This document shows, in pieces, positions 1,896-32,990 of a stretch of 48,510 nt of DNA. The notes beneath the pieces are model-generated. The model was given only the letters and a program-made list of their open reading frames with translations. It was not told the origin of the DNA and ran no database searches. Position numbers and translations under genes: made by a program. Each line of letters starts with the position of its first letter. The stretch's first letter is position 1. Source of the stretch: a virus; IMG/VR virus record IMGVR_UViG_3300009788_000034, positions 1 through 48,510 of that record, one strand, 5' to 3'.

Positions 1896-2818
1896 CCTGC
1901 GCTGAGCACGAGGTCGAGCGCTGTCCCGTCGCCCGCTGCCAGGTGTTGGCGGTGTGCGGTGCGCAGATGCCAGACGACGCCAAGCCGGACGAGCCAATCA
2001 ATTGGAGTTGGATATACACGTACGGATACTTTCGACCGGCGAACATCGACCCGCCACCGTATCTGCCTCGGTTCGCCAAACGGATCGCCGCCCGACTCGT
2101 GGCGTGGATGCGGTGGCCCGGACCCGTGGAGTGGGATCAGGATGGCCCGGGGATCCCCGGCGGAACCTTCACGCACATGCTCAACGGCATGTTCGAGACG
2201 TGGGCCGAACGGGTCGATAGGCTCTCTGACCCACTGCCGCCGACGAGGCCGCCGAACGATATCGCGCACTGCGGCCGCTGTCGTCCGCCCTGCACAACGG
2301 TCGGTCCCCATGCCGACGAGCACGACGCGCTGTGGACATGGTGTGAAGCGCGCTGGCCCGATTATCACGATGTCTGGGAAGACTGGCCACCCCAGGAAGA
2401 CGCGGACAGGGCCGAGATGGATGAGATACGCGCGCAGATCGATGGCCACCACGATGGCATCAACTGGGGCACCGTGCTCGTCGCCCTCGACTACCTCGAG
2501 ACCCAGGGCGCGCTCGGAGAAGCGTGGGCTGAAGTGCACGCGTTCCGAGCAGAGAAAACAATCACAACCCGAACAGCTGGTAGAGACATGACGATACAAA
2601 TCGAGACCCACCGCGGACCGGTCTACCGTACATCCAACACACCACCTATGCGCGCAGGGGAGACAGCCGTGTACCAAACCGCAGCCGACATCACGTTGGC
2701 CGAATTCTTCACTCTCCTGGCTGGCATGGGGGGTTTTGACGGCGAGCCGCCGCGAGATGTTCCAGAGGACATGCGCTGGACGGTTACTGTTACCGACAGC
2801 CGCGCGGTCAGTCGGTAG
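1892..2818 (+). CDS. Hypothetical 308-aa protein, last gene of early operon
   Basis: ATG overlaps the previous gene by ATGA. The N-terminus is Cys-rich (MTCAEHEVERCPVARCQ), the middle is rich in Trp and Pro with a CGRCRPPC cluster near residue 130, and the last about 75 residues after an internal Met look like a separate small domain. No known fold is recognised. The final 11 bases overlap, tail to tail, the minus-strand receiver gene. It is probably the end of the plus-strand early transcript, since everything beyond runs on the other strand. Confidence 0.75.
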   Translation: MTCAEHEVERCPVARCQVLAVCGAQMPDDAKPDEPINWSWIYTYGYFRPANIDPPPYLPRFAKRIAARLVAWMRWPGPVEWDQDGPGIPGGTFTHMLNGMFETWAERVDRLSDPLPPTRPPNDIAHCGRCRPPCTTVGPHADEHDALWTWCEARWPDYHDVWEDWPPQEDADRAEMDEIRAQIDGHHDGINWGTVLVALDYLETQGALGEAWAEVHAFRAEKTITTRTAGRDMTIQIETHRGPVYRTSNTPPMRAGETAVYQTAADITLAEFFTLLAGMGGFDGEPPRDVPEDMRWTVTVTDSRAVSR

Positions 2819-3164
2819 CCATCAGGCCCAACGCCTGACGCAGCACGGCACCATCGACAGGCTTGGCCAGCACTGGGCACCCCAACTCCTTCGAGATGGC
2901 CGCCAGGTCGTGACCGTGGGGCGTCACGACCACGACCGGAACGTCAACGCTCTGGCAGTAGCGCACCACCAATGCGGCAGGCCAGCTCTCTGTCAAGCCG
3001 TCGAGCAAGAGGTCGGTGACTACGCCGTCCACCTCAAGGCCAGAGCGGAGAGCGGCGATGTACGCGAGGGCCCATTCGAACTCGACCACGTCGACATCAC
3101 CCAGGGCGCGATGGATGTACATTCGGGCGACGCAGCTGTCATCGACGATCGCGATTCGGGACAT
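2808..3164 (-). CDS. Stand-alone CheY-like receiver protein, 118 aa
   Basis: The sequence has a complete response-regulator receiver domain and nothing else. The acidic pair D8-D9 is in IAIVDDS, the phospho-acceptor is D51 in GVVTDLLLDG, the switch Thr is T81 in VPVVVVTP, and K101 is in VLAKPV. This is the full conserved pentad of phosphorylatable receivers. With no output domain it should act, like CheY or Spo0F, by protein contact or as a phosphate sink. ATG 3164 is chosen because the domain begins right there; the longer frame upstream has no homologous look. No kinase gene is visible, so phosphate would come from host kinases. A second such gene lies at 36289. Confidence 0.9.
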   Translation of the reverse strand: MSRIAIVDDSCVARMYIHRALGDVDVVEFEWALAYIAALRSGLEVDGVVTDLLLDGLTESWPAALVVRYCQSVDVPVVVVTPHGHDLAAISKELGCPVLAKPVDGAVLRQALGLMATD

Positions 3165-3346: not shown

Positions 3347-3583
3347 TCACTCATAGGCATGATTGCCGCTCGTCACAATGTCCGGCGGACTGCCGATGAG
3401 CGAGCGGAGTTGCTCGTGTCCGCCCTCCAGGGATGCCAGGCGTACAGTGATCCATGTAGCAAATATGACGCCCAGGAGCGCCAGCACGCCAAAGGACCAG
3501 AGGGATAACCAGAGGTGAGAGCGGATATCGCGCAAGACGTCCAGCGTCGTCTCCGCGCACTCAGTCCCGCTCTTGTGTATCAT
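3347..3583 (-). CDS. Small single-span membrane protein, holin candidate
   Basis: 78 residues from ATG 3583: about 20 polar residues, a strong transmembrane segment at about 23-45 (LWLSLWSFGVLALLGVIF continuing to residue 45), then a charged tail. It overlaps the preceding gene by 23 bases. It is the last gene of the late strand, a usual place for lysis genes, and the size fits a small holin or a spanin-like protein. No endolysin was recognised beside it, so the lysis role is inference from topology and place. Confidence 0.6.
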   Translation of the reverse strand: MIHKSGTECAETTLDVLRDIRSHLWLSLWSFGVLALLGVIFATWITVRLASLEGGHEQLRSLIGSPPDIVTSGNHAYE

Positions 3584-3968
3584 CGGACACGTTGCCCTGG
3601 TCCGGTGTCGGGGCATCGACCAGGCCGGCGCCGGTGATCGCGTCGGGATCATCCTTGCCGGTGCGGGGGTTGATAGCCAGCTCATAGCTGGCCTGGAAGA
3701 TGTCGGGCTTGCACGGATAGGACTCGCCCGCGATTCCGCGGATGATGAAATCGCCATCTGTGGCAACCATGTCGCCCTCAAGGGTGGCGATGCGCAGCCG
3801 TCCATCGACATGCCGGTAAGCAGTGGGCTCACCCACCCATGCCATCACATCGTCGTGATTGCTCGGCGTGAGCAGCATCGCGGTGATGAGAACTGGCCGC
3901 TTGCGATAGGATCTTGGCCGATTTGAGGCGCCGGTGAGGTCCAGTGTGGCGCGGTCAGAAGCGGTCAC
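3561..3968 (-). CDS. Conserved phage protein with YPCKPDIF motif, 135 aa
   Basis: The segment GDFIIRGIAGESYPCKPDIF near residues 83-102, followed by a Tyr-Glu pair, matches a motif I know from many unrelated tailed phages, usually written as W-I-I-x-G-V-x-G-E-F-Y-P-C-K-P-D-I-F. The family has no known function. The start is GTG 3968 with GAGGTGG upstream and a GTGA overlap with the previous gene. Confidence 0.8.
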   Translation of the reverse strand: MTASDRATLDLTGASNRPRSYRKRPVLITAMLLTPSNHDDVMAWVGEPTAYRHVDGRLRIATLEGDMVATDGDFIIRGIAGESYPCKPDIFQASYELAINPRTGKDDPDAITGAGLVDAPTPDQGNVSDDTQERD

Positions 3969-4273
3969 GATCCCACCTCGGCAAGAATGGCGGCAACGGT
4001 GTCCCACGAACCCACATCGGTAATTACGACAATGTAGGTCGCTCCGTTGTCCAGGGGACCGCTTGTAGGTGATGCGTGCTTCCAGGTAAACCCGGCGGGA
4101 ATCACCACAGTGCTATCGCCAGCCCCATTGCCCCTCTGTCGCAACTCAGAGAGTAGTCCCCCGCCGATCTCACCGACCCGGATTTTCATGGCCGTGTCGC
4201 CGTTGCTGAGGTCCGCCGATGCACATTGGCCAAGGAGTTGCGGCTCGGGGTCTATCGTCCAGTTGTTTTCCAT
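3965..4273 (-). CDS. Hypothetical 102-aa protein in late region
   Basis: From ATG 4273 the product is a compact soluble protein rich in Gly, Thr and Val, of mainly beta character (DSTVVIPAGFTWKHASP, then ATYIVVITDVGSWDT). It lies six bases after the upstream structural gene. A small virion or head-decoration protein is possible; no family is recognised. Confidence 0.65.
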   Translation of the reverse strand: MENNWTIDPEPQLLGQCASADLSNGDTAMKIRVGEIGGGLLSELRQRGNGAGDSTVVIPAGFTWKHASPTSGPLDNGATYIVVITDVGSWDTVAAILAEVGS

Positions 4274-4279
4274 GGGTCC

Positions 4280-4954
4280 TCAGAACACCGGGTATTGTTT
4301 GTAGACCGCGACCGCCGAGTTGTCACCCCGGTTTTCGATCTCGACCTTCATCAGGCTCGGGAACCGGGCAGCGGTAATGGTTCCCGCTCCAACGTTCAGG
4401 TTGATTGTTCGCCTGGTGCCGACCGGCCCCTCGCTGGTATCCGAGCCTGATGCGAGCGCGACCTCTGCGACTGCGGGGTACACTAGATCGGCAATAGTGA
4501 GCCAACGGAGCGTCACCACCACATCGCACGTCGCCGAGTCCAGGACCTCGACCTTCCACTGAGACATCAAATTCACAGTCTGGAAATTGAACGTGTGGAT
4601 CCGGTCGGTGTTGGTCGCGATAGTCCGTTCATTGTCGGCGCCCAGTGCCCAGAACGCACCGCCAGCCGGGCCCTGGTCGGTTGGTGTATCCTGGCTGACC
4701 GCAGCGGAGAACGTGGTGGCCATCAGCGCTGATGCCTGGTTCCCGGCGTCCGTCTTTCGCATCTCGCCGACGTTGGCCGCGTTGGCGGTAAGGGTGAATT
4801 GAGAGAGGAAGGGTCCGCGGTCCGCAGTCTGGATGGCGTCGGTATCTTGGCCAATGTCTGCCGGTCCGAGTGCAATGGCTGGCACGAGGAGCGAGCCACC
4901 ATCACCGTCATCGATCCGGGCCTCGACCGGAGATCCACTTTCGACGTCAGCCAT
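4280..4954 (-). CDS. Putative structural protein, 224 aa
   Basis: ATG 4954 overlaps the upstream stop (TGATG). The N-terminal 60 residues are Asp/Gly-rich; the remainder is Ser/Thr/Val-rich beta-type sequence ending AVAVYKQYPVF, typical of phage virion proteins. It sits in the block after the coat gene. A decoration or tail-fibre-like role fits, but no domain is recognised. Confidence 0.65.
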   Translation of the reverse strand: MADVESGSPVEARIDDGDGGSLLVPAIALGPADIGQDTDAIQTADRGPFLSQFTLTANAANVGEMRKTDAGNQASALMATTFSAAVSQDTPTDQGPAGGAFWALGADNERTIATNTDRIHTFNFQTVNLMSQWKVEVLDSATCDVVVTLRWLTIADLVYPAVAEVALASGSDTSEGPVGTRRTINLNVGAGTITAARFPSLMKVEIENRGDNSAVAVYKQYPVF

Positions 4955-6481: not shown

Positions 6482-7906
6482 CTACTTCTCGGTCTCGGTG
6501 GAGACCACAAGATTCTTGGCCGTGTTGTGGGTGATGAACTGCAGAATTGCACCATAGGGCGCGTTGTGTTGAGTCGTGTTGCCGTCCACGGGGATCAAGA
6601 TTCTCGATCCATCCCGCATCTGCCAGTTGACGCCCGCGATTGTTGTGACGACCTCGAGGTTCCCGTTCAACACGACCCTCATCGTTGCATCCGCCTCGCG
6701 GGTCAGCTCCATGTCGCCCATCATGGCGTCCGACTTCAGGACCAGCTTGTGGCCGGATGGGAATATCGCCACCGCGCCGCTGATGCCAAACTGCATTTTC
6801 AGCGGATCGCTCCCTGTCGTCGCCCCGGTCATCGCGTTCGTGACAGTGATGTTCTGCGACGCGAAGGCGTCCATCAACCTCTTGTTCATCCTGGCCGGAA
6901 AGAAGAGGGCGCCGCTGAGTTCGTTCTCCCCTGCGGCATGTGGGAGGAACGCCAGCTCGACGGAGAGATTGCCGATGGCTTCGTGAAAACCCGCGATCGG
7001 GACATTCACGCGGCGCCCGGCCAGTCGGCTCGGATTCTCGCCACGGGGTACGCCGTAGAGGGTGTTCACGTCGCTGGTCCTTGCTGGACACCAGAGGTCC
7101 AGACCAGCGATCGGTCCACTCGTGCCTGGCGAGGACAGCGACGTCCCATCGTAGAATCCATCGAGCGTCAGATAGTCGCCGTTGGCTGCAGTGGGCACAA
7201 TGGTATCAACGGCCGCCGGGAAGGTGAGGCGCCCCCTGTTCTCGTCGATTCCCGTAACCACGAGGATCCCGCCCTCCCCGGGGGTGACGCCTACCCTGCG
7301 AGTCACGAGGGTGCCCCCAACGCGCGGGCCGGCCGCGAGGCTCAACTTGTCCCCCTTGCGGATGCGGTGGATCAGATCCTTCTGCTGAAGCACCAGAGTG
7401 GAAGTCGTGATACCAGTGCCCACTTCTGGGGTCGTCTGGGTTTTCGCGATCGACCCCGATCCATCTTCGTGGATCATCCATGACAAGGAGCGCCAAAAGG
7501 CCGTCCGCGTGCCGGTGAGCATCATCGGAATCGGCATGACGAAACCACCGTTGGCGGCGAACTGCATCGCTTTCCATTCGATGGAAAAGAAGTTCCACAA
7601 CTCCTGCATTGGGGCAACGAACTGCTCGAAGTCCTGCGCTACATGCGTGGATGCGGCCTTGCCAAAGTTTGATGCAGCGTTGCCACCAGAGCCGGTCCAC
7701 AGGGGGATCTTGATCTTGCCGTCACCCTTGATGTTGCCAGTAACGATCACCCCCTCATTGGTACTGGGACCCTTGGCGATCATCCGCAGGAGTTCGCCCT
7801 GGGCGATTTCAGTGTTGGGCGGCGGGATATTCTTCTCGTCCCACTGCTCCCGCTGGACATCCAGTGTGGTGGCCAGAGTGTTGAGGTCGGAGATTGGTGC
7901 AGTCAT
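6482..7906 (-). CDS. Major capsid protein (inferred), 474 aa
   Basis: This gene directly follows portal and scaffold genes in transcription order and has the length usual for a short-tailed-phage coat protein. The N-terminus is a charged helical arm, followed by mixed alpha/beta sequence with several aromatic motifs (QELWNFFSIEWKAMQF near residue 100) and a beta-rich C-terminus. There is no N-terminal delta-domain protease site. The assignment rests on order, size and composition. Structure prediction for an HK97 fold would settle it. Confidence 0.8.
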   Translation of the reverse strand: MTAPISDLNTLATTLDVQREQWDEKNIPPPNTEIAQGELLRMIAKGPSTNEGVIVTGNIKGDGKIKIPLWTGSGGNAASNFGKAASTHVAQDFEQFVAPMQELWNFFSIEWKAMQFAANGGFVMPIPMMLTGTRTAFWRSLSWMIHEDGSGSIAKTQTTPEVGTGITTSTLVLQQKDLIHRIRKGDKLSLAAGPRVGGTLVTRRVGVTPGEGGILVVTGIDENRGRLTFPAAVDTIVPTAANGDYLTLDGFYDGTSLSSPGTSGPIAGLDLWCPARTSDVNTLYGVPRGENPSRLAGRRVNVPIAGFHEAIGNLSVELAFLPHAAGENELSGALFFPARMNKRLMDAFASQNITVTNAMTGATTGSDPLKMQFGISGAVAIFPSGHKLVLKSDAMMGDMELTREADATMRVVLNGNLEVVTTIAGVNWQMRDGSRILIPVDGNTTQHNAPYGAILQFITHNTAKNLVVSTETEK

Positions 7907-7942
7907 GTTGGTCTCTCAGCGGGGGGGGTAGGGGTGGCCGGA

Positions 7943-8902
7943 CTAGTTGGGCCGATTCGTACGGCGTCGAACCTCTTCGGCGACCAACGCGTTGTAGTCT
8001 GTCTCTGACAGCGGCGCACCGCCTGGCGACGCCGCTGAGTAACCAGCGCTTTCCCCCGGGGCAGTGCTCGGCGTACTCGGGGGGGGCGTGATGGCAGGCG
8101 CCGGTGGTGGTGGGTCATTGCCGTTGACGGCAGGCGCCTTGCTCAGCATGGCCTCGAACGTGGGCAGCCACTGGGCCAGCTGGTCGAAGGCCACGTCCTC
8201 GCCTCGACTCCAATCGATGCCGCCTACCAGCCTTTCGTGGGTGAGCCGACCATCCAGGATGGCAGCGCTCACACCAGGGTATTTCTCGGCCAGGACCGCT
8301 GCAGTGCTCTCTTCGGCCAACTGTGCCATGGTCGAAGCGCGGACCGCTTCGGGTGTCACCTGCACAGCCGTCTCCGGCTGCCCCGCCGGCGTCTGCTGGT
8401 TCAGGTAGTACCTGTGCATCTGCGCCTGGCGGGTCAGGTCCATCAGCTGTTCACGTCCCAGGCGGAGCTGCTCCGGTTGCCTGGGGTCATCGTTGGCGGA
8501 TTCCCATCCCGCGATCCTTCCCAGCACCCTGGTGGTCTGGTCGACGAGTGCTACGCCCGGGGGGTCCGTGAACGGCTCATCGAGGTTGAGGTAGGTGTGG
8601 GCCTGTGCACTCAACACCGACTGTGGGCGCGCAGCTGCCCGCTCGGCAGCCTGACGCTCTTTCTCTGCCGCCTGATTCTCCGCACGCATGAACTCGCGCA
8701 CCTGCTGCTGGACGGCCGGGTCGGAGAGGTCCAGGGCCGGGGCCGGGGTCGGGGTCGGCGGCGCTGCGGGCGCTGCGGGCGCTGCGGGCGCGGTCGCCAG
8801 TGGAGCGCCATCAACTGCGGGCGCACTACCTGGCTCGGGTGTACTGTTGGGCTGCGGCGGCTCGGAGATTCCTGGGCTATCAGTGCTTTCCATCGCCCCC
8901 AT
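7943..8902 (-). CDS. Scaffold protein, 319 aa
   Basis: It lies between portal and coat genes. The N-terminus is Pro/Ala-rich with repeats of AAPAAP; the middle is charged and helical (QVREFMRAENQAAEKERQ); the C-terminus is Pro-rich and then basic, ending VRRRTNRPN. A helical core with a basic C-terminal tail is typical of podovirus scaffolds. ATG 8902 is used; ATG 8893 is equally possible. Confidence 0.85.
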   Translation of the reverse strand: MGAMESTDSPGISEPPQPNSTPEPGSAPAVDGAPLATAPAAPAAPAAPPTPTPAPALDLSDPAVQQQVREFMRAENQAAEKERQAAERAAARPQSVLSAQAHTYLNLDEPFTDPPGVALVDQTTRVLGRIAGWESANDDPRQPEQLRLGREQLMDLTRQAQMHRYYLNQQTPAGQPETAVQVTPEAVRASTMAQLAEESTAAVLAEKYPGVSAAILDGRLTHERLVGGIDWSRGEDVAFDQLAQWLPTFEAMLSKAPAVNGNDPPPPAPAITPPPSTPSTAPGESAGYSAASPGGAPLSETDYNALVAEEVRRRTNRPN

Positions 8903-8912: not shown

Positions 8913-8942
8913 GCGACGTTCGTTGCAACGTCGCGCGACGTT
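8913..8942. promoter_or_regulatory. Triple GCGACGTT half-site / palindrome between portal and scaffold
   Basis: AACGTCGCGCGACGTT (8927-8942) is a perfect 16-bp palindrome, and GCGACGTT occurs once more at 8913-8920. The middle half-site can therefore pair with either neighbour, giving two mutually exclusive hairpins on the late mRNA just before the scaffold start. It could be an mRNA processing or expression-balancing element, or an operator. Confidence 0.5.
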
Positions 8943-10899
8943 ACGTGACCGGCGGTGCCTGGGGGGCAGGTGCCAATGTGGGGCTGACAGGTAGCGATTC
9001 TGGTGGCGGCAAGAGCTGTGCTGCGGCAAACAAATACTCCCGATATCGGACGACCGTCTCAGGCTTGGCGCGCTGTGCAATCGCCAGGTTGATCATCTCC
9101 GTCGTGAGTTCGAGGAGCAGAGGGATATCCATGTCTCGGCTGGGCTGAGCCTGGGCATGGTCCGCATCCGGGTCGGACAGTAGCCAGAGGTGATACTCGA
9201 TCGCCCGCTGCATCGCTGTCTCTCGGGTGGTCAGCCGCTCGTCATCCACCGGGCCGACGATCGCCGAGAATGCGCTTTGTGGACTGATGAGCCCCTTGGT
9301 CGCATCGTCCAGCACCTTGGAGATGCGCGCGGCCCGACTGTCGCCGAACTGTCCGGTTTCCTCGAAGCCCAGAACCCACTCCTCGTGATTCTGGGTGAGC
9401 TCTGCCCAAGGGGTCGATGTCCAGAGTCCGCTGCTGTCCTTGAAGCTGGCCGAGAACTCGGGATCCAGCCTCACCGCATCCTCTGTGGTGTTCAGCAGCT
9501 CTCGGACGCTTCGCAGCTGTGCGGTGGAGAACGCCTCGATCAGGTGATTCTGTCGGTCGCGTGTGCGAAGCCGCTCCTCGACCTGTGCGCGGCCGCTGGC
9601 ATTGGCTCCAAGCTGGCTCCGGCCTTCGGTGACCACGCTCGTGATGCCCAGCTCGTTGGTCGGAACCGCCAGCGCCCATTCCAGGAGTTGCAGCTGCTCG
9701 GGCGCGAGCACCTGTGGGGGGACGATCTGTGGCAACTCGTTGGGTTCGGCGACAGGAACGGCGTTGATGCCAGCCGCGAGCAACGCCGTTATCGTCGCCT
9801 TGGGTGAGTTCTTTGGGACAAACACCTTGTGATGCCCGTATCTGATTTGCACCTTGACGATTTTCCATAGCTGGTAATTGATGAAGCCCTGGACCGCCAG
9901 CAAGTGGTCGGCCAGCGCGATGCCCCGCATGCCCGAGTCGGCCGGTGTAGGCATATACCAGACCACCGGCAAGGTGTCGCGACGGAACTTGTAGTCCAAA
10001 GCCACCACGCTATCGGTGCCCGATAGGACAGAGCACGTATAGCGCCCGCCTGATGTCCCAGGGCTATAACTCCGACGCCACGAGTGGACGACTCGAATCC
10101 GGTCGGTGCGATCAACCGTCGTTCCCTGGGTGGATATCGTGGAGAAGTACGCCCCTTGCCAAAAATTGCTGTGTCCATCGACGTGCTCGGTTGCACGCGG
10201 GACCGTGCGGATCCGGCCTATACGCGCGTCGTGGTTGGGAATCGGTATTGCATCGCCCGCATCGCCGAGGCTCCGAGCGTTTTCATACCAAGCCAGAAAG
10301 AGGTCGCGATCCACCAGCTCGACGACATGGCAGAATGTCGGCTCCCCAGTGTTCAGCGCATCGTGGGGGTCGATATGGACCTGCCATGGATGGAGGCGCC
10401 GTTTTGTGATGCGCCCGCCCTTCCCATCGTATCGCCACATGGACCAGCCGACCCGCTTGACCAGGCCGTCTCGAGCCCACAACCTATCGACCTCGGAGAC
10501 CTCTGGGGTGCTTCGAATCCCATTGATCGCGCGCTGCCGAGTGTCGAACTGACGTAGCTGCTCAAAGGTGCCATTCCGTGACTGGATTGTGATTCGCGGT
10601 TGCTCGATCACCTTGTTGAGCACCGCGTCCACCGAGTGGGCTAGTTTGTTGATCGTGAACGGAGATGGGCCCAGTCCGTCGCGCGCTAGACGGTCATGGA
10701 ACGGGTCTTTCTGCCACTGCTGGTATTCGTCGTCGTTCCACCACTCACGCTCATATGCCAGGGCCAGGACCGCCATCCGAGCGATCTCGGGGCCACGGGC
10801 CAGCGCGCAATGCTCGAGGTTCTGGCGGATGACCTCGGGTAGCCGATCGTCCCAGAGGGGTACTTGGTCGGTGCGATACCATTGGAGTTCGTGAGTCAT
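8941..10899 (-). CDS. Portal protein, 652 aa
   Basis: It immediately follows the large terminase (ATGA overlap) and precedes the scaffold, with the length typical of short-tailed-phage portals. The N-terminal half is rich in Trp and charged residues; the segment SGRAQVEERLRTRDRQNHLI and the following helix resemble the long helices of portal stems. The C-terminal tail is Pro-rich. Assignment is by order, size and pattern. Confidence 0.87.
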   Translation of the reverse strand: MTHELQWYRTDQVPLWDDRLPEVIRQNLEHCALARGPEIARMAVLALAYEREWWNDDEYQQWQKDPFHDRLARDGLGPSPFTINKLAHSVDAVLNKVIEQPRITIQSRNGTFEQLRQFDTRQRAINGIRSTPEVSEVDRLWARDGLVKRVGWSMWRYDGKGGRITKRRLHPWQVHIDPHDALNTGEPTFCHVVELVDRDLFLAWYENARSLGDAGDAIPIPNHDARIGRIRTVPRATEHVDGHSNFWQGAYFSTISTQGTTVDRTDRIRVVHSWRRSYSPGTSGGRYTCSVLSGTDSVVALDYKFRRDTLPVVWYMPTPADSGMRGIALADHLLAVQGFINYQLWKIVKVQIRYGHHKVFVPKNSPKATITALLAAGINAVPVAEPNELPQIVPPQVLAPEQLQLLEWALAVPTNELGITSVVTEGRSQLGANASGRAQVEERLRTRDRQNHLIEAFSTAQLRSVRELLNTTEDAVRLDPEFSASFKDSSGLWTSTPWAELTQNHEEWVLGFEETGQFGDSRAARISKVLDDATKGLISPQSAFSAIVGPVDDERLTTRETAMQRAIEYHLWLLSDPDADHAQAQPSRDMDIPLLLELTTEMINLAIAQRAKPETVVRYREYLFAAAQLLPPPESLPVSPTLAPAPQAPPVT

Positions 10900-12674
10900 T
10901 GGAGTTGCTCGGTCATGAAAGCCCGGTGACGCTGGTTGGGGATGTCCTGCATGTGGGCTGTGGGGTCTGGTCGCTCGGCGCGCAATGCCTTGATCTCGTC
11001 ACCACCATACAGCATGGTGTCCAGGCAGTGATTGCCCGGGATGAGCGACCGACCGCCAGGAAGGGGGATCTCCCGTTGCTTGTCCACCTCGCCCGGGCGA
11101 TCGGCCTTGAATCGTAAATTGCGACCCTCGACGTCGAGGGTCGAGCCCGCCAGTACACGGATCCGTCCATCCCACAGATCGATGTTGGCGATACGCCGGC
11201 GCGCCAATTTCGGCCCTTTTTTGGGCGCGACGACGCGCAGTGCATCACCCCCTGCGGCTGTCGGGAAGCGCGCGCGGACCGCACGGTCCCAATCAACACG
11301 GGTTCCAGTTCGCATGCCTGTGAGATCCGCGACAATGACGTCCACCTGCCAGCCAGCACCGAACAGTCGGTCCGTGACGCTGACCATCTCGCGGAGCATC
11401 TCCGCATCTCCCATCTCGTGGCGAGCATCGCTGTACAGCTCCAGGGCAGCGGGATGAAGCCAGGACCATGCCCAGACGGTTATCGCCCACGGGTCAGGCC
11501 GATAGCCGATGTCCACCGAAACGACGATCTGCCACTCGAGTGACCGCGCCGGGTCCGGGTGCCGGAGACTTTCGTCGGGGTGAGACGTCAGGAGCGCGAG
11601 CCGGTCCTCGAGCGTCGCAGCCACGGGTAAGGCGTTATCGCGGTCATGCGCTGTACCGGTTGCCGCCCAATATAGCTGCAGTGGTGGAACTCTGTGCCAC
11701 ACGTAGACATGGGCAGCAGCATTGCGGACCGACCGCCCAAACAGGTTCTTCAGCAACTCCGAATCCAACCCCGGATTCTCGGGCGTGCCATCACCATCGA
11801 TCCAGAGACGCAGCTCGTCGCTCTCATCGCCCGCCATGACGGCATCACACTCGGTCTCGCTCAGCCCGTGAAGTCGGGCCAGGTCGCTGTCTTGCAGTGC
11901 GTAGTCGGTGCGTGCGGTCTCCACGCTCCTGCGGAGTACGGTTGCCCAGCGCTCACCAAACGCTTCCCCGAAATGGGGGTTGCGCCAACTCGCAAGGGTA
12001 CAGCTCTTCCATGCGCCATCGTTGCCGGACTGCAGGCGACTGGGCAGGCTGTCCGGGTCATCGTCGGGCGTGTACGTGAGCATGATCCTGGCTCCGTAGT
12101 CGGCCAGGGTCGGGTAGACCAGAGACCGCAGGGCATAGCTCAGGATGCCCGGGCGCATCTTCGTGGCCTCGTCAACCCAATACAGGGATGCCGTGATTCC
12201 GTGATGCTTGGCCACCGCCTGCTCGTTGTTGATGTCGTGCACGTACAGGCCAGAATTCCACGGGAATGTGATCGACATAACAGAGCGGCCGTGTCGGTGG
12301 ACACTGGCGATCCCGGGCACGAGCCCCAATTCGGTGAGCCAGCCGACCACCCCCCGGTCCTGCGCGCGATCAAGGATGTTGGCGCTTGGTGCGCGGAGTA
12401 CGCTGGTGAGCATGCGCACCACGTAGCCATCGTGGATCAGCATCAGCGCGAGTACTACCCGGGCCAGCATCGACTTGCCCGAGCGCCGGGGACCGAGAAC
12501 CGCTATGTGATACAAGGCCTCAGCCAGGACACGGGCGATATCCGCCTGGCCCTGATAGTTCAGGACGGGGCGCAACACGGCTTCTGCCCATTCCTCGCGT
12601 TGCCGTATGCTCACCCCCCCAACAATTCCGAATGCCGGGGCCAGGGCAATCAGGGCATTGGGCCCTCCGGCCAT
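10896..12674 (-). CDS. terL: Large terminase subunit, 592 aa
   Basis: This is the packaging motor and headful nuclease. Walker A is GPRRSGKS at residues 61-68. Walker B is LYWVDEA, with D168-E169 as the catalytic pair. The C-terminal RNase-H-like nuclease shows D388 in VSVDIGYRPD, D450 in VIVADLTG and D552 in HCLDTMLYGG. ATG 12674 is chosen; it lies one base after the small-subunit stop, and the longer frame upstream has no terminase character. Product length is normal for the family. Confidence 0.95.
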   Translation of the reverse strand: MAGGPNALIALAPAFGIVGGVSIRQREEWAEAVLRPVLNYQGQADIARVLAEALYHIAVLGPRRSGKSMLARVVLALMLIHDGYVVRMLTSVLRAPSANILDRAQDRGVVGWLTELGLVPGIASVHRHGRSVMSITFPWNSGLYVHDINNEQAVAKHHGITASLYWVDEATKMRPGILSYALRSLVYPTLADYGARIMLTYTPDDDPDSLPSRLQSGNDGAWKSCTLASWRNPHFGEAFGERWATVLRRSVETARTDYALQDSDLARLHGLSETECDAVMAGDESDELRLWIDGDGTPENPGLDSELLKNLFGRSVRNAAAHVYVWHRVPPLQLYWAATGTAHDRDNALPVAATLEDRLALLTSHPDESLRHPDPARSLEWQIVVSVDIGYRPDPWAITVWAWSWLHPAALELYSDARHEMGDAEMLREMVSVTDRLFGAGWQVDVIVADLTGMRTGTRVDWDRAVRARFPTAAGGDALRVVAPKKGPKLARRRIANIDLWDGRIRVLAGSTLDVEGRNLRFKADRPGEVDKQREIPLPGGRSLIPGNHCLDTMLYGGDEIKALRAERPDPTAHMQDIPNQRHRAFMTEQLQ

Positions 12675-18514: not shown

Positions 18515-19258
18515 TCAATACCCGGAAACGTGCCCGCCCATCCCGAAGTCGTCCGCATCGAGCACGCCGAGGTCATCCTGCCGACCTCGGAGGGTGTTGA
18601 GTTGCACCGCAATCTCGGATGCCTTTGCCCGCGCCCGCTGAAGTTCTTTTGCCTCCTCGCGCGTGACCATGCCGATCCGCACCTCGTTCGCCAGCCACGC
18701 AAACGCCGGTTCCGCGATCACGTCCACCTGGATGACATCATCGTTGTCGTCGGTGGGGTCGCCCAAGCTCGGGGCCTGGGTCCGGTAGCCCAGGGTCACC
18801 AGGGTGCCGGCAGGGACGTCGGGGAAGAACCTGATCCGCTGCGGATACGGGACGTCGGCTTGCAGGTTCTCGTCAAACTCTTCCCCCGGCCCCTCGAGAA
18901 AGTAGTGCGGACTGGAAGGGTTCTGGTCTCCGTCGTACCATCCGCGCTCTTCGGCCGCCGTCGGGTCTACACGGTACACGCGCTGGCGCCTGTCGAAGTC
19001 GTCGCGCCTGAGCGCCTGCAGGGACAGGAAGTTGTTGGGCAGTGTGAGCGTTGGCCCCGCGGCGGTTAGGGTCAGTTGGCGCCGGGTGTATCCGTATCCG
19101 TCCTGCCACCCTGCGCTGATCGCGAAGTGCAGCTCTCGCCACGCGTCCAGGGCGTACCGTCGTCGGTCAGTCCTGGTGACCGGGCCGGTGTCGCCGCCGC
19201 GGTGGGAGTAGCGATCGGCACGTAGGAGGATGTCGGCGTAGCTGGCGGGGAATGACAT
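18515..19258 (-). CDS. Head-tail adaptor, P22 gp4-like (inferred), 247 aa
   Basis: The N-terminus (DRRRYALDAWRELHFAISAG) is a helix like those opening head-tail connector adaptors; residues 60-170 are beta-rich with TLTLPNNFLSLQAL and IRFFPDVPAGTLVTLGYRTQ; a long helical C-terminus (AFAWLANEVRIGMVTREEAK) follows. This alpha-beta-alpha plan, and the place next to the nozzle gene, match gp4-type adaptors of short-tailed phages. Confidence 0.65.
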   Translation of the reverse strand: MSFPASYADILLRADRYSHRGGDTGPVTRTDRRRYALDAWRELHFAISAGWQDGYGYTRRQLTLTAAGPTLTLPNNFLSLQALRRDDFDRRQRVYRVDPTAAEERGWYDGDQNPSSPHYFLEGPGEEFDENLQADVPYPQRIRFFPDVPAGTLVTLGYRTQAPSLGDPTDDNDDVIQVDVIAEPAFAWLANEVRIGMVTREEAKELQRARAKASEIAVQLNTLRGRQDDLGVLDADDFGMGGHVSGY

Positions 19259-20405
19259 GGCGCCAGGATACCACCTGCTCGCTGTAGGCGGACCCCCCCC
19301 TTTTGCCGTGACCTACCAGGGACCACTCGGTCCCAAGGGCTCTGCCCAACAATCCTGCCGCGGATGCGGCTACCATTCTCCGGGGCCCCCTGGTCACTTT
19401 TCAGGGGAGAGTCCGGATCAGACCCACACCGGAGCGTCGGTGCTGGCTCCACTCGACGACACGGTCCCCGTCGCACGTCCTACCGGCGAGTCGAGCTCGC
19501 TCCCAGACTGCAATGGTAGGGGATCGCATCGGCCAGAAGAGCCAGCGACAACCGGGGTCACACGCATCACCCGCGCGGTCGAGTGCTCTTCGAGAGCGAC
19601 CGTGCGGGCCATGTTTCGCGATGGACGGGGGGTGTGGTGCCTCATGCGCTCAAGGGCAGACGCGGCGAGTGGGCCTTCTGTCCCAGCTTCGTCAAGATAC
19701 GAGGGGGTCGGCTTCATCCGGTCACGGTCGGAGCATCCCACCGCTTTCCTGCCTACTGTCCAAGTCCGTGTCCACCATCCAGCGCACGAAGGACACAATC
19801 CATCGGCCTGACCAGCGTGCTGTGGGGTGGCGTGCTCGGTCGTGTGCTCAATGGGGCGATGCCAGCATTGCAACAGAGGCGCGCGTACTCCGTGAACATG
19901 CCGGGGGGCACTACGGGGGAACGTCCCACCATGGCCTTTGTACGGGTGTTCGCAGTCTTCGGCCTGTATCTGGCCCTCGGTCTCTGACGGCGCGGACGCC
20001 GCATCGCTCCATTCAACACACGACGTCTCACCGTCGATGCCGTGCCGCCATTTGGCCACTCGCGGCGTTGTCGGACCCTCACGACGAGAGGGCGCCCGTG
20101 GCGGGTCGCTGTGCTCAGTGCTGGGACCGGGAGTCGAACCCGGATTGCCTGCTCCCTGCCGCAGTGGTCTGCCGCGAGGCTTTCTTCCTTGCGTCTGGGC
20201 TTCGGTCCCATGACGTGGTGCAGGGTGGCACTCGCGCTCACGATCGCGGTCGTCTACCGTTCCGACATCGCAGCATTCAACACAGCGACCCATTGCTATC
20301 GACGTGGGTCGAGCCCGCCGGCCACATGCTCGAACCGCGGTGAGTGACGCTCCCGCGGTTGCCACTGTCAGGGGATGCCTGTAGAGTGATTTCAGCATGT
20401 TGCAA
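19259..20405 (-). ncRNA. Candidate large structured RNA region (no convincing gene)
   Basis: About 1.1 kb without a believable protein gene: all frames are Arg/Ser/Pro-rich shadows. Strong hairpins include a 15-bp interrupted stem at 19570-19608, GGGACC-ACTC-GGTCCC at 19319-19334, GCCGC-GGAT-GCGGC at 19357-19370, CCCCTG/CAGGGG at 19387-19407, CGGCG/CGCCG at 19988-20001 and CCCTC/GAGGG at 20076-20092. A tRNA-like T-arm lies at 20119-20143 and a TTGACG promoter at 20412-20440, both on the minus strand. Large phage RNAs such as GOLLD have this size and often neighbour tRNAs, but identity is not established; strand is inferred. Confidence 0.4.
20119..20143 (-). other. tRNA-like T-arm and 3' acceptor strand without a 5' half
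   Basis: On the minus strand, CCGGG-TTCGACT-CCCGG is a perfect T stem and loop, followed by TCCCAGC and a discriminator A, exactly the layout of a tRNA 3' end. The 5' partner GCTGGGA is absent within 100 bases upstream, and no proper anticodon stem can be folded. It may be a tRNA remnant, an attachment-site core copied from a host tRNA 3' end, or a tRNA mimic inside a larger RNA. No CCA is encoded. Confidence 0.55.
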
Positions 20406-20411
20406 TGCTGA

Positions 20412-20440
20412 GTCTGAACCCTACAGACTCACCCGTCAAC
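20412..20440 (-). promoter_or_regulatory. TTGACG-N17-CAGACT promoter (minus strand)
   Basis: TTGACG (20440-20435) and CAGACT (20417-20412) are separated by 17 bases, matching the spacing of the leaderless-gene promoters of this genome. No start codon follows at six bases, so it could instead drive the structured RNA region downstream. Confidence 0.5.
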
Positions 20441-20480
20441 CCCTGGGACCCGACCGGGTTGCCGGGGGTTGGCTTTTTCG
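20441..20480 (+). terminator. Rho-independent terminator-like hairpin (plus strand)
   Basis: CCCCTGG-ACCCG pairs with CGGGT-CCGGGG through a two-base loop with small bulges, and is followed by GGCTTTTTC. It would stop plus-strand transcription arriving from about 20.4 kb. No plus gene upstream is evident, so it may end an antisense or noncoding transcript. Confidence 0.55.
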
Positions 20481-20577
20481 GGGATGAAGACGCGGGCCCA
20501 GTTGCCGATATGCCGGGTGCGCTGGCTGCGACAATAGGCCGCAGGGCCACGCCAGAGCCAGGTGCTACGGTCGCGTC

Positions 20578-20791
20578 ATGACCATCAACACTTTCCGTCT
20601 CGAGGTCAGGTCTACGCCCTGGCTCACCATCGTGATCACCGACGCCGAGCAGGATACCCAACCCAAACATCGCGCGTATCGCTGACGAGTGGGCACAGCT
20701 CAATGAGCGATGGCAGGCGCTCCACGGCAGCGACGGGGAGCCGCTGGCTGAGTCAGGCGAGCAATACGATGCCCTCGCCCGACAGCGCTAA
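20578..20791 (+). pseudogene. Small gene split by a +1 frame change
   Basis: ATG 20578 encodes 34 protein-like residues (MTINTFRLEVRSTPWLTIVI onward) and stops at TGA 20683. The frame one base ahead continues in natural-looking sequence (IARIADEWAQLNERWQALHG) to TAA 20791 and has no start codon of its own. A single +1 shift gives one product of about 70 residues. The stop context is CGC-TGA-C, like the release-factor-2 shift site. Sequencing error, decay and programmed shifting are all open. Confidence 0.45.
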
Positions 20792-20839
20792 GATCGTGGT
20801 TTCTGGCTATAGCAGACTGTATTGGGCATCAAGCCCCGA

Positions 20840-21217
20840 TCATTCGTCCCTGGGGGCGAGCACCATCCACGCCTTGCCGCACGACCAATCGACGCGGGGC
20901 CACGCGCAGTCGCACCACAGATCGTTGAGATCCTCATCGTAGTGGTCATCGTTGCAGCTGCCGAACTCTTCTCGTATCCAATCCTCGACATCATCGATGT
21001 GGTCGCGAAACTCTTCGCCGTTGGTGTCGCCAGTCAGCCACCGGCTGTCGATACGGACGTGGAAACACTTGGGACGGTGGTTGATATTCCAGACGATGCA
21101 CAGCGCCTGCCCGTCGCCGAACTGCCGACCAACGACGACAGGGATGATCGTGTTGCACGTGTCGGGGACGAGATGCGTCTCCGATGGAAGGATGGAAGGA
21201 ATGCGAAGGGTCTTCAT
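20840..21217 (-). CDS. Hypothetical acidic Trp/Cys-rich protein, 125 aa
   Basis: From ATG 21217 the product has a beta-type N-terminal half, then a strongly acidic helix (EFRDHIDDVEDWIREEF) and a tail with DLWCDCAWPRVDWSCG, a possible metal site. The ATG is eight bases after the CGTC of the ECF-like promoter at 21226-21252, so translation is probably leaderless. It is not part of the virion gene chain. Function unknown. Confidence 0.75.
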   Translation of the reverse strand: MKTLRIPSILPSETHLVPDTCNTIIPVVVGRQFGDGQALCIVWNINHRPKCFHVRIDSRWLTGDTNGEEFRDHIDDVEDWIREEFGSCNDDHYDEDLNDLWCDCAWPRVDWSCGKAWMVLAPRDE

Positions 21218-21225
21218 GATCAGAA

Positions 21226-21252
21226 GACGAGCGAGTACCCCTTGCGGTCACA
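21226..21252 (-). promoter_or_regulatory. ECF-like promoter TGTGACC-N16-CGTC (minus)
   Basis: TGTGACC is at 21252-21246 and CGTC at 21229-21226, with exactly 16 bases between, containing a G-run. The start codon of the downstream gene is eight bases beyond CGTC. TGA of the TGTGACC box is also the stop of the upstream gene. A near mirror copy of the -35 half lies at 21312-21318 on the other strand, making an 11-bp inverted repeat. Confidence 0.65.
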
Positions 21253-21472
21253 ATTCTTTGCGAGGGTGCCCGGATAAGGGCTGACGTTTTTCGGAGAAAT
21301 CGACGGGGAAATTGTGACCGGAGGGGGTGTATGTAACGAGGACAGCAGCCCACCGCGTCCCGCTCATCAGTAGGACTCCGACAGCCCTCGTGACGCATGT
21401 CCGGGCGAGCCCGCGCTTGAGGGTGGGGAATATGGCAAGCGCGTTGCCGACGTGGAGTGTGCCGCTGGTCAC
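21248..21472 (-). CDS. Small hydrophobic protein, 74 aa, GTG start
   Basis: GTG 21472 overlaps the preceding stop by GTGA. The product is basic with aliphatic stretches (HVGNALAIFP and AVGVLLMSGTRWAAVLVTY), the second long enough for a membrane segment. It ends exactly in the promoter of the next gene. Supported by coupling and composition; function unknown. Confidence 0.55.
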   Translation of the reverse strand: MTSGTLHVGNALAIFPTLKRGLARTCVTRAVGVLLMSGTRWAAVLVTYTPSGHNFPVDFSEKRQPLSGHPRKEL

Positions 21473-21603
21473 GCCCGAGGCCTGCCCTGCCCAGCCATCC
21501 GTCTCGCCGTCCAGTCGTGGAACCGCGTCGCCCATCGTCCGCGAGTGACGAGTAGCGGGTGAGCGACGAGCTGGTGGATATGCCACCAGAAGGTATTGCG
21601 CAT
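21469..21603 (-). CDS. Small phage protein with WWHIHQLVAHPLL motif, 44 aa
   Basis: MRNTFWWHIHQLVAHPLLVT is followed by RWATRFHDWTARRM. Short proteins of the form W-W-x-H-N-x-x-A-H-P-L-L then F-H-D-W-T are familiar in tailed phages but have no known function. TACCCT lies six bases before the ATG, so the gene is probably leaderless. A truncated relative sits in opposite orientation at 22618-22710, and the DNA of both is about 80% identical over about 45 bases. Confidence 0.7.
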   Translation of the reverse strand: MRNTFWWHIHQLVAHPLLVTRGRWATRFHDWTARRMAGQGRPRA

Positions 21604-21670
21604 TTTTGCAGGGTAGCACTTCTTGCGTGAACCCGCTGGCCCTACAGGGCGGCTCAACGTCCCAGGCTGT

Positions 21671-21738
21671 GGTATGATGGTGCCCATCTGCTACTCGACA
21701 CCTTGCCGCCGGCCAGAGCCCGATCTGGTCGAGTAGCA
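21671..21738 (+). promoter_or_regulatory. Extended -10 promoter and leader hairpin
   Basis: TGGTATGAT at 21670-21678 is an extended -10 element without an obvious -35. The leader then carries an 11-bp perfect inverted repeat, TGCTACTCGAC (21689-21699) with GTCGAGTAGCA (21728-21738). It precedes the plus-strand gene at 21782 by about 45 bases and could be an operator or an RNA control stem. Confidence 0.45.
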
Positions 21739-21781
21739 TCCCTGGATACCGGGCCGGCTGGCGACCTTGAAAGGATGAATT

Positions 21782-22633
21782 GTGGGTGGGAAATCTCGTG
21801 TACGTCTAGCAGCCGTAAAAATACGTCGTCATTTCGCCCTTGGGAGACTGACCGTCGAACGATTCCAGGGTGGGGTCTGGTTCAGCAACGTGGATAATGG
21901 GCATGCGTGGCTGTCAAACGAACTCCTCTTTGCGGCTGAAGAATACGCCTGGTCCGGTACAGGCCGCGAGACGCTGTTCAACGTCTCGGGCTATGGCCTA
22001 TCCGTCGCCAACGGTAAGTCAACCCTGCGGCTGGGGGGCACGTACGGGGACAGGCACGACCTGCCGACACCGGGGGTCATGCTCACCGCGCTTCAGGACA
22101 TGGGGATCAGTGGCCCAATACCTAGAGCATTCGGCCACGATGCCGCTGTCTACTTCGAGTACAGACACAAGATGCCCCGGCGCATGTACGCAGGCGGGGA
22201 CGGGCAAACCTTTGTCGATGGTCACCCAGGCGAGCCCGACCGTTGGGAGCATGCCGCCGATATGACGGTATGGCGTGGCCAAGCGCACACTACATTTTTG
22301 CTGAGATGCTTCCGCCCAAGCGAGTCCCCTAATTACTTCTGGTTGTCTATGCCCAACGTCGTTATTGACGAGGCATCCAAGCACGACGACGGGGCGAATG
22401 TGACCGTGGAGATCGATGACTACAAAGTGACGATGTGGCTGAACAGAGTTGTGATCCAGCACGGGTACACCGATTTTTACAAACCGTGGAAGCAAAAAAT
22501 GGAGTTCTCGACCAACGCCCATGCCCTTGCTGCGTGGCTGCGAACACTGGCCCTGACGACGTCATGCGAGGGGTGCGGCGAGCCCATCGACAGGGGATCG
22601 AGCAGAGACCACCGATCATGTCCGATCCAGTAA
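21782..22633 (+). CDS. Hypothetical 283-aa accessory protein with C-terminal zinc motif
   Basis: The start is GTG 21782 after AAAGG. The N-terminus is basic; the middle is aromatic and polar (AWLSNELLFAAEEYAWSG, later FEYRHKMPRRMY); the end has CEGCGEPIDRGSSRDHRSC, a likely Cys/His zinc site. No known domain. It lies on the opposite strand to the late genes with its own promoter, as expected of a moron or accessory gene. It uses more A and T than neighbouring virion genes. Confidence 0.75.
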   Translation: MGGKSRVRLAAVKIRRHFALGRLTVERFQGGVWFSNVDNGHAWLSNELLFAAEEYAWSGTGRETLFNVSGYGLSVANGKSTLRLGGTYGDRHDLPTPGVMLTALQDMGISGPIPRAFGHDAAVYFEYRHKMPRRMYAGGDGQTFVDGHPGEPDRWEHAADMTVWRGQAHTTFLLRCFRPSESPNYFWLSMPNVVIDEASKHDDGANVTVEIDDYKVTMWLNRVVIQHGYTDFYKPWKQKMEFSTNAHALAAWLRTLALTTSCEGCGEPIDRGSSRDHRSCPIQ

Positions 22634-22710
22634 TATCTACACCGCTAAGGTGCAGTTTTTGGTGGCACATCCACCAGCTTATTGCCCACCCGTTACTGGT
22701 CAGAGGCTGA
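22618..22710 (+). CDS. Truncated paralogue of the WWHIH protein, 30 aa
   Basis: The product contains RCSFWWHIHQLIAHPLLV and then stops, lacking the F-H-D-W-T half found in the gene at 21469-21603. It overlaps the 3' end of the preceding gene by 16 bases. It may be a remnant of an inverted duplication flanking the 21782-22633 gene, or a minimal functional form. Confidence 0.5.
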   Translation: MSDPVISTPLRCSFWWHIHQLIAHPLLVRG

Positions 22711-22758
22711 TTCTGTCAAGTAGCTAAGAGGGGCCACGATGCCCGATTGGCCAGAGCA

Positions 22759-23139
22759 ATGAGGTATGATCTTTTGGACCCCGGAATCAGAGAGGTCGTG
22801 CGGTGGCTTCGCGCCGCTGGGTTCGACACGTACGACAGCGGCGATGGGGTGTCCAAGACGGATTGGATCGCAAGGGGAACCGCAATGCGTGTGCCGCACG
22901 TATTCATCCGTACGACCCCGGCAGCGATGACCACCGATGCTCGCGACTTGTTGTGGGCTGTTCGCGCGACTGGCGTGGATGTCCAGAGTAGCCTCGTTGC
23001 GCGTGGTAGTGCTGTGACCGTCGAAGCATGGTACTGCACTGTCACAGACACTGCGTGGATGTGCCTGGTCGGTTTCGATGATGCAGCGCTGCCGTCTACA
23101 CCTCACCCATCGAAAAGAGCGACCGAGATCAAATCATGA
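22759..23139 (+). CDS. Conserved phage-type protein with DSGDG motif, 126 aa
   Basis: The N-terminus LDPGIREVVRWLRAAGFDTY is followed by DSGDG. This resembles small phage proteins of the form P-G-I-x-x-x-V-x-x-L-x-x-x-G-F-x-T-x-D-S-G-D-G, whose function is unknown. Its stop overlaps the next ATG. Part of a plus-strand island inside the late region. Confidence 0.7.
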   Translation: MRYDLLDPGIREVVRWLRAAGFDTYDSGDGVSKTDWIARGTAMRVPHVFIRTTPAAMTTDARDLLWAVRATGVDVQSSLVARGSAVTVEAWYCTVTDTAWMCLVGFDDAALPSTPHPSKRATEIKS

Positions 23140-30953: not shown

Positions 30954-31907
30954 TCAGGATATCACACGGTGTCTCGTCGGCAGGCGATCGCGGCGCAGGG
31001 GTGTGCGACGGGTGTCCCACCCATCTGTCACTGTCACCACTACGCTCAGGGTCGGGTTGCCATCGTCATCCCAGCCGGCGTCATCGAGCCGGATGGTGAT
31101 TGACGCGAAGCTCGGGCCGCGCGGCTCGCTCAGCTCCTCGAAAGCTCGCTCGACGAAGGCCAGGAGCTTGGCCGTGGTGAACTCGGCCACCGTCTCCTCG
31201 TTCGGGTCCCTGTCGGCGAACCGTTCGTCACCCGGGCTCGGCTCGGGCACCGACGCCTCTACATGGCCACTTACCATCGGCGGCGCGTCGGGCTCAGGCT
31301 GCCCGCTCACTGGTGGAGGAATCAGCGCGTCGAGTCCGAGCCCCGCCAAATGCCTGGGGTCGGTGAGCTCGACCACGGTGATTCCTGCTTCCGGGAGCGC
31401 CGATGGGCTCCACTCGCTCGCGTCTGCGGGCTCGACCGGCTGCTCGACCGGCTGCTCGACCGGCTGCTCGACCGGCTGCCCGACTCCGAGCTGGCGCAGG
31501 TACGCCTTGACATCCTTGGGCGCCCCGGATGCGACGCCATCGTTTCGGGCTCGCTCACGGGCAGCCCTTGCCCAGGACACCAGCCGTCTGGCATGGGCCC
31601 ACGGCATCGGCTTATTGGCGTCGTCCGCCAGGGTCACGATACATTGCCTGTTGTTGTCCAGCTCTGTGTCGCTGAACCGTTCCAGCACGCCCTTGAGCCT
31701 GCCGACCGGATTCGGCATGTACTCGCTGCCGGTCGGTTTTCGCGTCTTTCCGATCGTGCTGGCTTCGTAGATGGGGCGCGCGCGTCGGGCGCTCATGCCC
31801 ATCACGAACTCACCACTCAGACTCCATCGAGCCATCGCCTCGTGGTAGCCCCATGTCTTGCCTTCGTTCGCGGCGAGGAACGCAGCGAATTGTTCTTCTC
31901 TGGTCAT
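30954..31907 (-). CDS. Hypothetical 317-aa protein, first gene of late strand
   Basis: ATG 31907 follows AGAGGTG. The N-terminal about 130 residues form a helical, basic domain (WAHARRLVSWARAARERARN); then comes a linker with four PVEQ units and a Pro/Glu-rich stretch; the C-terminal about 90 residues are an acidic alpha/beta domain. The linker is encoded by four exact 12-base repeats. Being first after the TTGACT promoter it may be regulatory rather than structural. No family recognised. Confidence 0.65.
   Translation of the reverse strand: MTREEQFAAFLAANEGKTWGYHEAMARWSLSGEFVMGMSARRARPIYEASTIGKTRKPTGSEYMPNPVGRLKGVLERFSDTELDNNRQCIVTLADDANKPMPWAHARRLVSWARAARERARNDGVASGAPKDVKAYLRQLGVGQPVEQPVEQPVEQPVEPADASEWSPSALPEAGITVVELTDPRHLAGLGLDALIPPPVSGQPEPDAPPMVSGHVEASVPEPSPGDERFADRDPNEETVAEFTTAKLLAFVERAFEELSEPRGPSFASITIRLDDAGWDDDGNPTLSVVVTVTDGWDTRRTPLRRDRLPTRHRVIS
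31431..31478. repeat. Four tandem 12-bp repeats inside a gene
   Basis: CTCGACCGGCTG occurs four times without interruption, encoding Pro-Val-Glu-Gln units on the minus strand. The exact copies suggest recent slippage, so copy number may vary between related phages. Confidence 0.9.
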
Positions 31908-31955
31908 GCACACCTCTGAAGTCCCTGGCTACCCCGCCGCGTAGAGGGTATGCAG

Positions 31956-31984
31956 ACTCGTGCGGCAGGGCGTGCCAGAGTCAA
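31956..31984 (-). promoter_or_regulatory. Candidate late promoter TTGACT-N17-ACGAGT
   Basis: TTGACT (31984-31979) and ACGAGT (31961-31956) are 17 bases apart and about 50 bases upstream of the first late gene. Spacing fits a sigma-70-type promoter although the -10 is weak. It is the only promoter-like element seen just above the late strand. Confidence 0.4.
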
Positions 31985-32672
31985 GGTCCGAGTCTGCCCG
32001 TTGACAATACATATCCGCGCTGGTGCCCGCAAGTCCTTTCCGCGTCGCGGTTTGATGTCGCGGCGCCTCCCTGGTGCTCGCTTGCGCCCTGGGTGGACAT
32101 GCCTTGTCGGTGCGCGCCGGTGCGCGAGTACGCGAAATCATTGACCCTTTCACCTCAATCGAAGGCCTTAGAAGCCGGCGCCCTGGCTCGACACCAGAAA
32201 GCCGACCGCATGCGCGAATTCCGCCCACCATCGCCCGGACCCCGCCCTAGCCGTCGCCAACCTATATCTTATACAGGCGACGGTCGTGGCATATCGCCAG
32301 CCGCGGGTCCCGGGTACTACCCGGTCACGTGGTCCAGCTCGGACCGTCGCAGGGTTTCCCCGGCCAGCTGTGCCAGCACGCCTGACGCTCCGGGTCCGAT
32401 TCGACGGTACTCCGGAGCAATGCGCGTGCGTTCGTGGCACTTGGCTGACAAGGGCAGGTGATTCGGATCGTGTGGGTCAACACGTCCGGCCGCCGCCAGT
32501 CTGCGAGGGTTGGCCTGATCCGGCTCATGAGCTGGACTGTGCGTCGATGCGAAGTTGCAAGGGCCAAATTGCCCCAGCAAGTCAAACTCCATAGACATAG
32601 ACGCACAATCCAGCCCACGAGCCCCCGGGTGGCCGTACAGGGGTACCCCCCCTGGCTGCCGATCTCCTGCTC

Positions 32673-32839
32673 GTGGGCTGCGATGGACTATCCTGCAGAT
32701 CCAGGTACACCGACGCATCAGACTAGCGAAGCCAGAACGCACGCGCAATACCTGGGCAGCGGCTGCAACCGCCGTTCCCTCCACGAGCAGTTGCAGCCGC
32801 TCGGATCGGTTTCCTGCAGAATGGCCCATCGCAGCCCAC
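32673..32839. repeat. Long nested inverted repeat
   Basis: Outer arms 32673-32698 and 32814-32839 match at 23 of 26 positions. Inside are a 7-bp pair (32701-32707/32749-32755) and a perfect 12-bp pair AGCGGCTGCAAC/GTTGCAGCCGCT (32758-32769/32790-32801). This forms a three-stem junction in RNA or a cruciform in DNA, and is too long to be chance in a random gap. Confidence 0.8.
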
Positions 32840-32990
32840 GAACCAAGGGCGGCCCCGTGGTCTGCGTGGGATCTTCGCTGGCTCGTGGGCTCGATGCCAT
32901 GCTGATACCCGATTGTCCCCGGGGTTTGGGGTCGGGACGAGGATTGTGCTCCCGGGCCTACTCGGCCTGCAGCATCCACGTCAGCACAGC

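Follow-up and report, generated by a model that had tools for sequence, protein, structure and literature searches.

Stand-alone receivers of Alteromonas phages

Receiver domains encoded by phages as stand-alone proteins are already in print for marine phages of Alteromonas (PMC7289586, PMC10579305, PMC8228385), those of V22, A5, and R8W having been interpreted as auxiliary metabolic or "PhoB" genes. The latter label has been used although R8W gp48, for example, has no DNA-binding domain. Stand-alone receivers are present in at least five Alteromonas phage lineages, and comprise V22 gp30, A5 gp11, R8W gp48, H4/4 gp44, gp12 of R9Y1-3, and the receivers of PB15 and V19. In all five lineages the gene directly preceding that of the receiver codes for a small coiled-coil protein, in most cases a membrane-anchored one. 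Genes of an endolysin, spanin, or holin lie at or near the receiver gene in four of the lineages. In V22 and A5 the gene order is upstream protein–receiver–Rz-like spanin–two-TM protein, with an annotated endolysin also near the receiver in A5; in R9Y1-3 it is TM protein–receiver–GH108 endolysin (adjacent in R9Y3), and in R8W and H4/4 holin–TM protein–receiver, with the holin two genes upstream. PB15 displays the order XhlA-like–receiver–M15 peptidase–holin, and V19 that of TM protein–receiver, with no lysis genes identified. The arrangement is found at positions 7370-8578 of locus L013, 2639-3956 of L014, 3485-4851 of L017, 3687-5143 of L019, 3727-4450 of L020, 3631-4886 of L021, 5634-7043 of L030, and 5631-7055 of L031, and the IMG/VR loci L024-L028, L030, and L031 have the same gene order as the alterophages. 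No report of a receiver gene following a coiled-coil protein gene beside lysis genes was found in the literature searched.

The upstream gene often overlaps the alterophage receiver gene by 4 bp. Its product has a segment serving as membrane anchor, which in V22 and A5 is weak by hydropathy, and a helical stretch that, judged by eye, resembles a coiled coil; the PB15 product is a member of the XhlA/haemolysin family (phrog_937, E 1.8e-16). A conserved histidine of the upstream coiled-coil proteins was considered as a phosphotransfer site and dropped, since the histidine varies across the lineages. The V19 receiver (L020, positions 3998-4450) has lost both the acceptor aspartate and the conserved lysine; it looks like a pseudo-receiver and, judging by these residues, may signal without phosphorylation. 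All the known hosts are Alteromonas, so that the pattern may be genus-specific.

Generic receiver matches in the phage collection amount to 165 records, largely assembly contigs resembling host DNA. Several candidates for stand-alone phage receivers were rejected: the match in MT835672 is a complete hybrid histidine kinase, that in LR756503, of 735 kb, a PAS-kinase-receiver protein, the Komp_PAO1_1 match lies opposite an annotated gene, and those in Bhz63 and MW462191 are longer PhoP-like regulators. The "receiver domain" of a preprint on phage N4 lysis (PMC12642591) is its authors' name for a pinholin region and is not CheY-like.

General features of the phage genome

The window, i.e., the whole stretch of DNA analysed here, is the IMG/VR virus record IMGVR_UViG_3300009788_000034 of 48,510 bases. 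It is bordered by an exact direct terminal repeat of 123 bp (positions 1-123 and 48388-48510), and an open frame spans its joined ends, which argues that the record is circularly joinable and, with high probability, represents the complete genome, of 48,387 bp. On the circle, the rightward early genes, including BRO-like, Erf-like, and Nudix ones (the last at 44503-45126, plus strand; PF00293, E 6e-17), begin at about 38.3 kb and continue across the junction as far as 2.8 kb, where they converge with a leftward block extending from about 32 kb down. The leftward block contains the P22-like portal and terminase large subunit genes (8941-12674, minus strand) and, at 18515-19258, that of an SU10-type adaptor (family matches among the three: PF16510, E 2e-7; phrog_2, E 1e-8; PF24175, E 6e-8), and is thus regarded as the packaging and structural, i.e., late, operon. 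Where the two blocks diverge, coding is sparse and there are two genes of HTH regulators, one of the HTH_31 type (33476-33766, minus strand) and one HTH_3/CI-like (34876-35226, plus strand).

The terminase, the portal, and the major capsid candidate have no relatives in INPHARED or IMG/VR, and by sequence comparison the phage is an orphan with no detectable relatives. Most proteins of the minus-strand structural block (6482-31907), apart from the portal and the adaptor, lack a Pfam or PHROG match, including those of 1551, 824, and 752 aa. The genome is tightly packed except for 19260-23130 and 31900-38280, where coding density judged by codon usage is low; genes with a foreign composition, or elements that do not code, may lie in these stretches, and Rfam gives no match. 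The sequence at 20117-20190, on the minus strand, ends in a perfect tRNA-like T-arm with the acceptor 3' half (CCGGGTTCGACTCCCGGTCCCAGCA), whereas its 5' half is unconvincing, and ARAGORN calls it only as a tRNA-Thr of poor quality, with an intron of 37 bases. It might represent a tRNA in decay or an attachment site; searches for recombinase domains of the tyrosine and serine types found neither.

Two single-domain receivers

The first receiver gene, coding for the 118-aa protein P0003, lies at 2808-3164. The original prediction placed it correctly and left the strand unstated; the coding strand is the minus one, the plus-strand translation of this segment being unrelated. The protein begins with MSRIAIVDDS, and the five conserved residues claimed for it, D8, D9, D51, T81, and K101, are all found in the translation. 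The reading frame stays open upstream to a GTG at 3350, which would add 62 residues, and as the codons of this extension are non-coding-like (log-odds of -0.158 per codon vs. +0.142, GC3 of 0.58 vs. 0.81), the ATG at 3164 is preferred as the start. The sequence of P0003 departs from that of textbook receivers in P82, following T81, and in V98 at the aromatic switch position. A scan around the gene yielded no promoter or terminator above chance.

The second, divergent receiver announced together with it is indeed present: the gene at 36289-36693 on the plus strand codes for P0002, of 134 aa, with the conserved residues D8, D9, D51, S76 (replacing threonine), and K102, and with E103 in the position where proline normally follows the conserved lysine. 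It is located in the sparsely coding stretch, with the HTH regulator genes on one side, upstream of it, and the rightward early operon on the other. The two receivers are 27% identical over 84 aa (BLASTP E 4e-6).

PF00072 is the sole Pfam family matched by either protein, and it is matched over nearly its full length, i.e., over positions 1-110 of 111 by P0003 (E 0.0019) and 1-106 by P0002 (E 8.9e-6). The scores, 18.8 and 26.3 bits, respectively, lie below the gathering cutoff of 30.2, which is a database threshold and not a biological feature. An HMM built from seven bacterial single-domain receivers, collected from among 84,980 species genomes, finds only P0003 (E 4.8e-12) and P0002 (E 6.4e-5) among the 582 stop-to-stop ORFs of the window, the next-best ORF having an E of 0.99, in a test that is mildly circular because the bacterial set was retrieved with an alignment of these two proteins. 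The best of 10,000 shuffles reaches 11.0 bits in this HMM vs. 41.2 for P0003 and 18.2 for P0002. As two ORFs are picked out of 582, well above the shuffles, the finding is real and not due to chance, and both proteins are almost certainly receivers. Single-sequence AlphaFold2 models of the two are of low confidence (pLDDT of 55.6 and 51.4); receivers head the list of structural matches to the P0003 model, with E > 0.01, while in the P0002 model strands and helices alternate and there is no receiver among its listed structural matches. The receiver-only architecture foreseen for the first protein holds for both, since neither carries an output domain beside PF00072.

A receiver fold might also serve catalysis. 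Phosphoesterases of the cRec type, with cyclic phosphate nucleotides or ADP-ribose as substrates, have been proposed for jumbo phages; their domains retain the catalytic aspartates and co-occur with Nudix proteins (PMC7824862). The proteins considered here could by analogy be enzymes of this kind, having no part in signalling. The phage does have a Nudix gene, but it adjoins neither receiver gene, both proteins carry the Thr/Ser and the Lys typical of signalling receivers, and cREC_REC (PF20274) is missing among the Pfam matches up to an E of 1, which together make an enzyme of this type very improbable. A direct PF20274 search was negative, and its controls likewise gave no match.

Nor is it probable that the two genes are mere passengers, acquired from host DNA and expressed with no benefit to the phage. 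Such an origin would fit two copies unrelated beyond the receiver-family level and the fact that no syntenic relative showing their conservation was found in INPHARED or IMG/VR. P0003 as a query matches nothing in either collection, and the lone IMG/VR match of P0002, over 31 residues (L003), is due to chance, the open frames there encoding no receiver. On the other hand, all the catalytic residues are retained in both proteins despite their strong divergence, the codon usage of P0003 agrees with that of the phage's own genes, and similar genes persist across five alterophage lineages.

Probable phosphorylation of the receivers

The absence of a kinase, assumed in the original prediction, is borne out for the probably complete record, as profile searches found no HATPase_c, HisKA, or Hpt domain in it, the control matches for the three being obtained in 14/14, 12/14, and 8/14 known genomes, respectively. 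A phosphoryl donor must in that case be sought in the host or among small molecules such as acetyl phosphate. At least one of the two receivers is probably phosphorylated in vivo, and during infection host histidine kinases or acetyl phosphate may supply the phosphoryl groups to both.

An acceptor of this kind could, as the original prediction suggested, act as a decoy or phosphate sink, draining the host kinases and thereby shutting a host two-component pathway, e.g., that of envelope stress, motility, or general stress. The active-site residues are intact, no output domain is attached, and the phage has no kinase of its own, all of which would suit a sink. It would, however, be expected early in infection, whereas the first receiver gene ends the late operon, and, the phage having no detectable relatives, there is no cognate host kinase to point to; a sink is considered unlikely.

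Neighbourhood of the first receiver gene

The gene of P0003 shares the strand and the block with the genes of the structural region, including those that code for the portal, the terminase, and the adaptor, and it is the final late gene before the convergent early block. Directly upstream, at 3347-3583 on the minus strand, there is a gene coding for a 78-aa protein with one predicted TM helix (residues 24-42) whose 19-residue hydropathy mean is 2.14, the only called gene product of the window exceeding 1.9. For a neighbour drawn at random, the chance of meeting this gene on a given side is about 1 in 59. Its start is overlapped by another gene of the same operon, at 3561-3968 on the minus strand, coding for a conserved phage protein (phrog_419, E 9e-26; phrog_1810, E 6e-20). 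The 78-aa protein, a candidate partner of P0003, has no match in family profile searches, and an HMM built from the upstream proteins of the alterophages does not detect it either. Among the scanned late proteins of the window no endolysin, spanin, or known holin was recognised; as the phage is an orphan, a divergent lysis gene could have been missed by family searches.

On this arrangement an explanation can be built which is favoured here. P0003 and P0002 would be single-domain regulators phosphorylated by the host and, having neither a DNA-binding nor an enzymatic output domain, would signal by binding another protein. By its position, P0003 is expected to be a late protein, made alongside the packaging and structural ones, and it may act at the cell membrane in the final phase of infection, via or together with the small TM protein encoded upstream. 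What it would influence is lysis timing: phosphorylation would report the energy or envelope state of the host and would modulate a small membrane protein involved in lysis. Since no lysis gene is recognisable in the window, the link to lysis is an analogy with the alterophages, and the membrane or lysis version of the role of P0003 is accordingly put forward as plausible, if doubtful. P0002, encoded beside the HTH regulators, more likely acts on the early or regulatory side and need not share the role of P0003. The explanation as a whole, i.e., two host-phosphorylated single-domain regulators of which the first acts late, possibly on lysis, is offered tentatively, at somewhat short of an even chance. 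None of the results favours the function suggested in the original prediction, a sink or a mimic of host regulators, over other roles, and the gene context speaks at least as much for a late or lysis stage of action.

In a wider form, several unrelated phage lineages would have recruited host-type receivers as signal inputs to lysis, with host phosphorylation setting the burst time via the receiver and a small membrane coiled-coil protein, and the phage analysed here would be an independent, non-homologous instance; so broad a generalization is rather unlikely. If, nevertheless, the recurrence of receivers next to lysis genes has a functional basis, host signal transduction would feed directly into the timing of lysis, an input which textbook holin-clock models do not include. 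The alterophages, having cultured hosts, make the idea of a link to lysis testable.

Comparison with known systems

The closest relatives found for P0003 are bacterial: stand-alone receivers from Holophagaceae, from another acidobacterium, and from a proteobacterium, with 32-37% identity to it over residues 1-108 or more. Like P0003, the bacterial single-domain regulators (Holophagaceae loci L004-L010 and the CheY and Spo0F models) are receiver-only proteins of about 120 aa with the DD/D/T-S/K residues, and their identity to P0003 is 28-37%. They differ from it in being host-encoded and in exceeding the PF00072 cutoff by far (66.6 bits for the member tested), while P82 after the conserved threonine and V98 at the switch position set P0003 apart. 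Known host regulators of this type work by protein contact (PMC5964349, PMC12802240), and by that precedent the phage proteins could be adaptors or mimics which, when phosphorylated, bind a host target such as the flagellar switch, an anti-sigma factor, or a polysaccharide enzyme and retune host physiology. Both the affiliation of P0003 and the location of the P0002 gene in a regulatory region near the HTH genes would accord with such a role. There is, however, no specific host target to point to, and the identity to any relative is only 24-37%; an adaptor of this kind is considered as unlikely as a sink.

Among phage proteins, the jumbo phage cRec (PF20274) has a receiver fold, presumed for P0003 and P0002 as well, and resembles the two in its phage origin and its catalytic aspartates, but it has a profile of its own and is linked to NAD/ADP-ribose or RNA-repair genes. 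PIT4 of the Pseudomonas phage LSL4 would be similar to them if they act on host two-component systems; it is reported to bind histidine kinase domains and is not described as a receiver.

The alterophage receivers share several features with those of the window. They likewise have no recognised output domain, are encoded by tailed phages, and have, as P0003 does, a gene of a small, mostly membrane-anchored protein just upstream, and the active-site aspartate and lysine are intact in all those examined except V19. They are located after tail-fibre genes and are mostly longer, reaching 147-153 aa through a C-terminal tail that is helical (about 128 aa in PB15). Their scores exceed the Pfam cutoff, except for that of V19 (29.9 bits), whereas those of P0003 and P0002 fall below it. 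Most of them adjoin recognisable lysis genes, which the first receiver gene of the window does not, and are tightly coupled to the upstream gene, while in the window the TM gene and the receiver gene are separated by 182 bp. The identity of P0003 to the alterophage receivers is 13-22%, and an HMM of eight phage receivers leaves it unmatched and detects P0002 with an E of 0.014. As P0003 is nearer to bacterial receivers and is missed by this HMM, the loci are not demonstrably related by descent, and the arrangement in the window would at most be an independent, analogous one. The view that two stand-alone receivers in one phage are unusual stands with respect to the number, no second case having been met in a non-systematic look, but not with respect to stand-alone receivers as such, which recur in the alterophages. 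P0003 and P0002 are divergent additions to the phage-borne single-domain receivers, a kind already known, and the points of interest are the presence of two receivers in one orphan phage and the lysis-cassette pattern in the comparison set.
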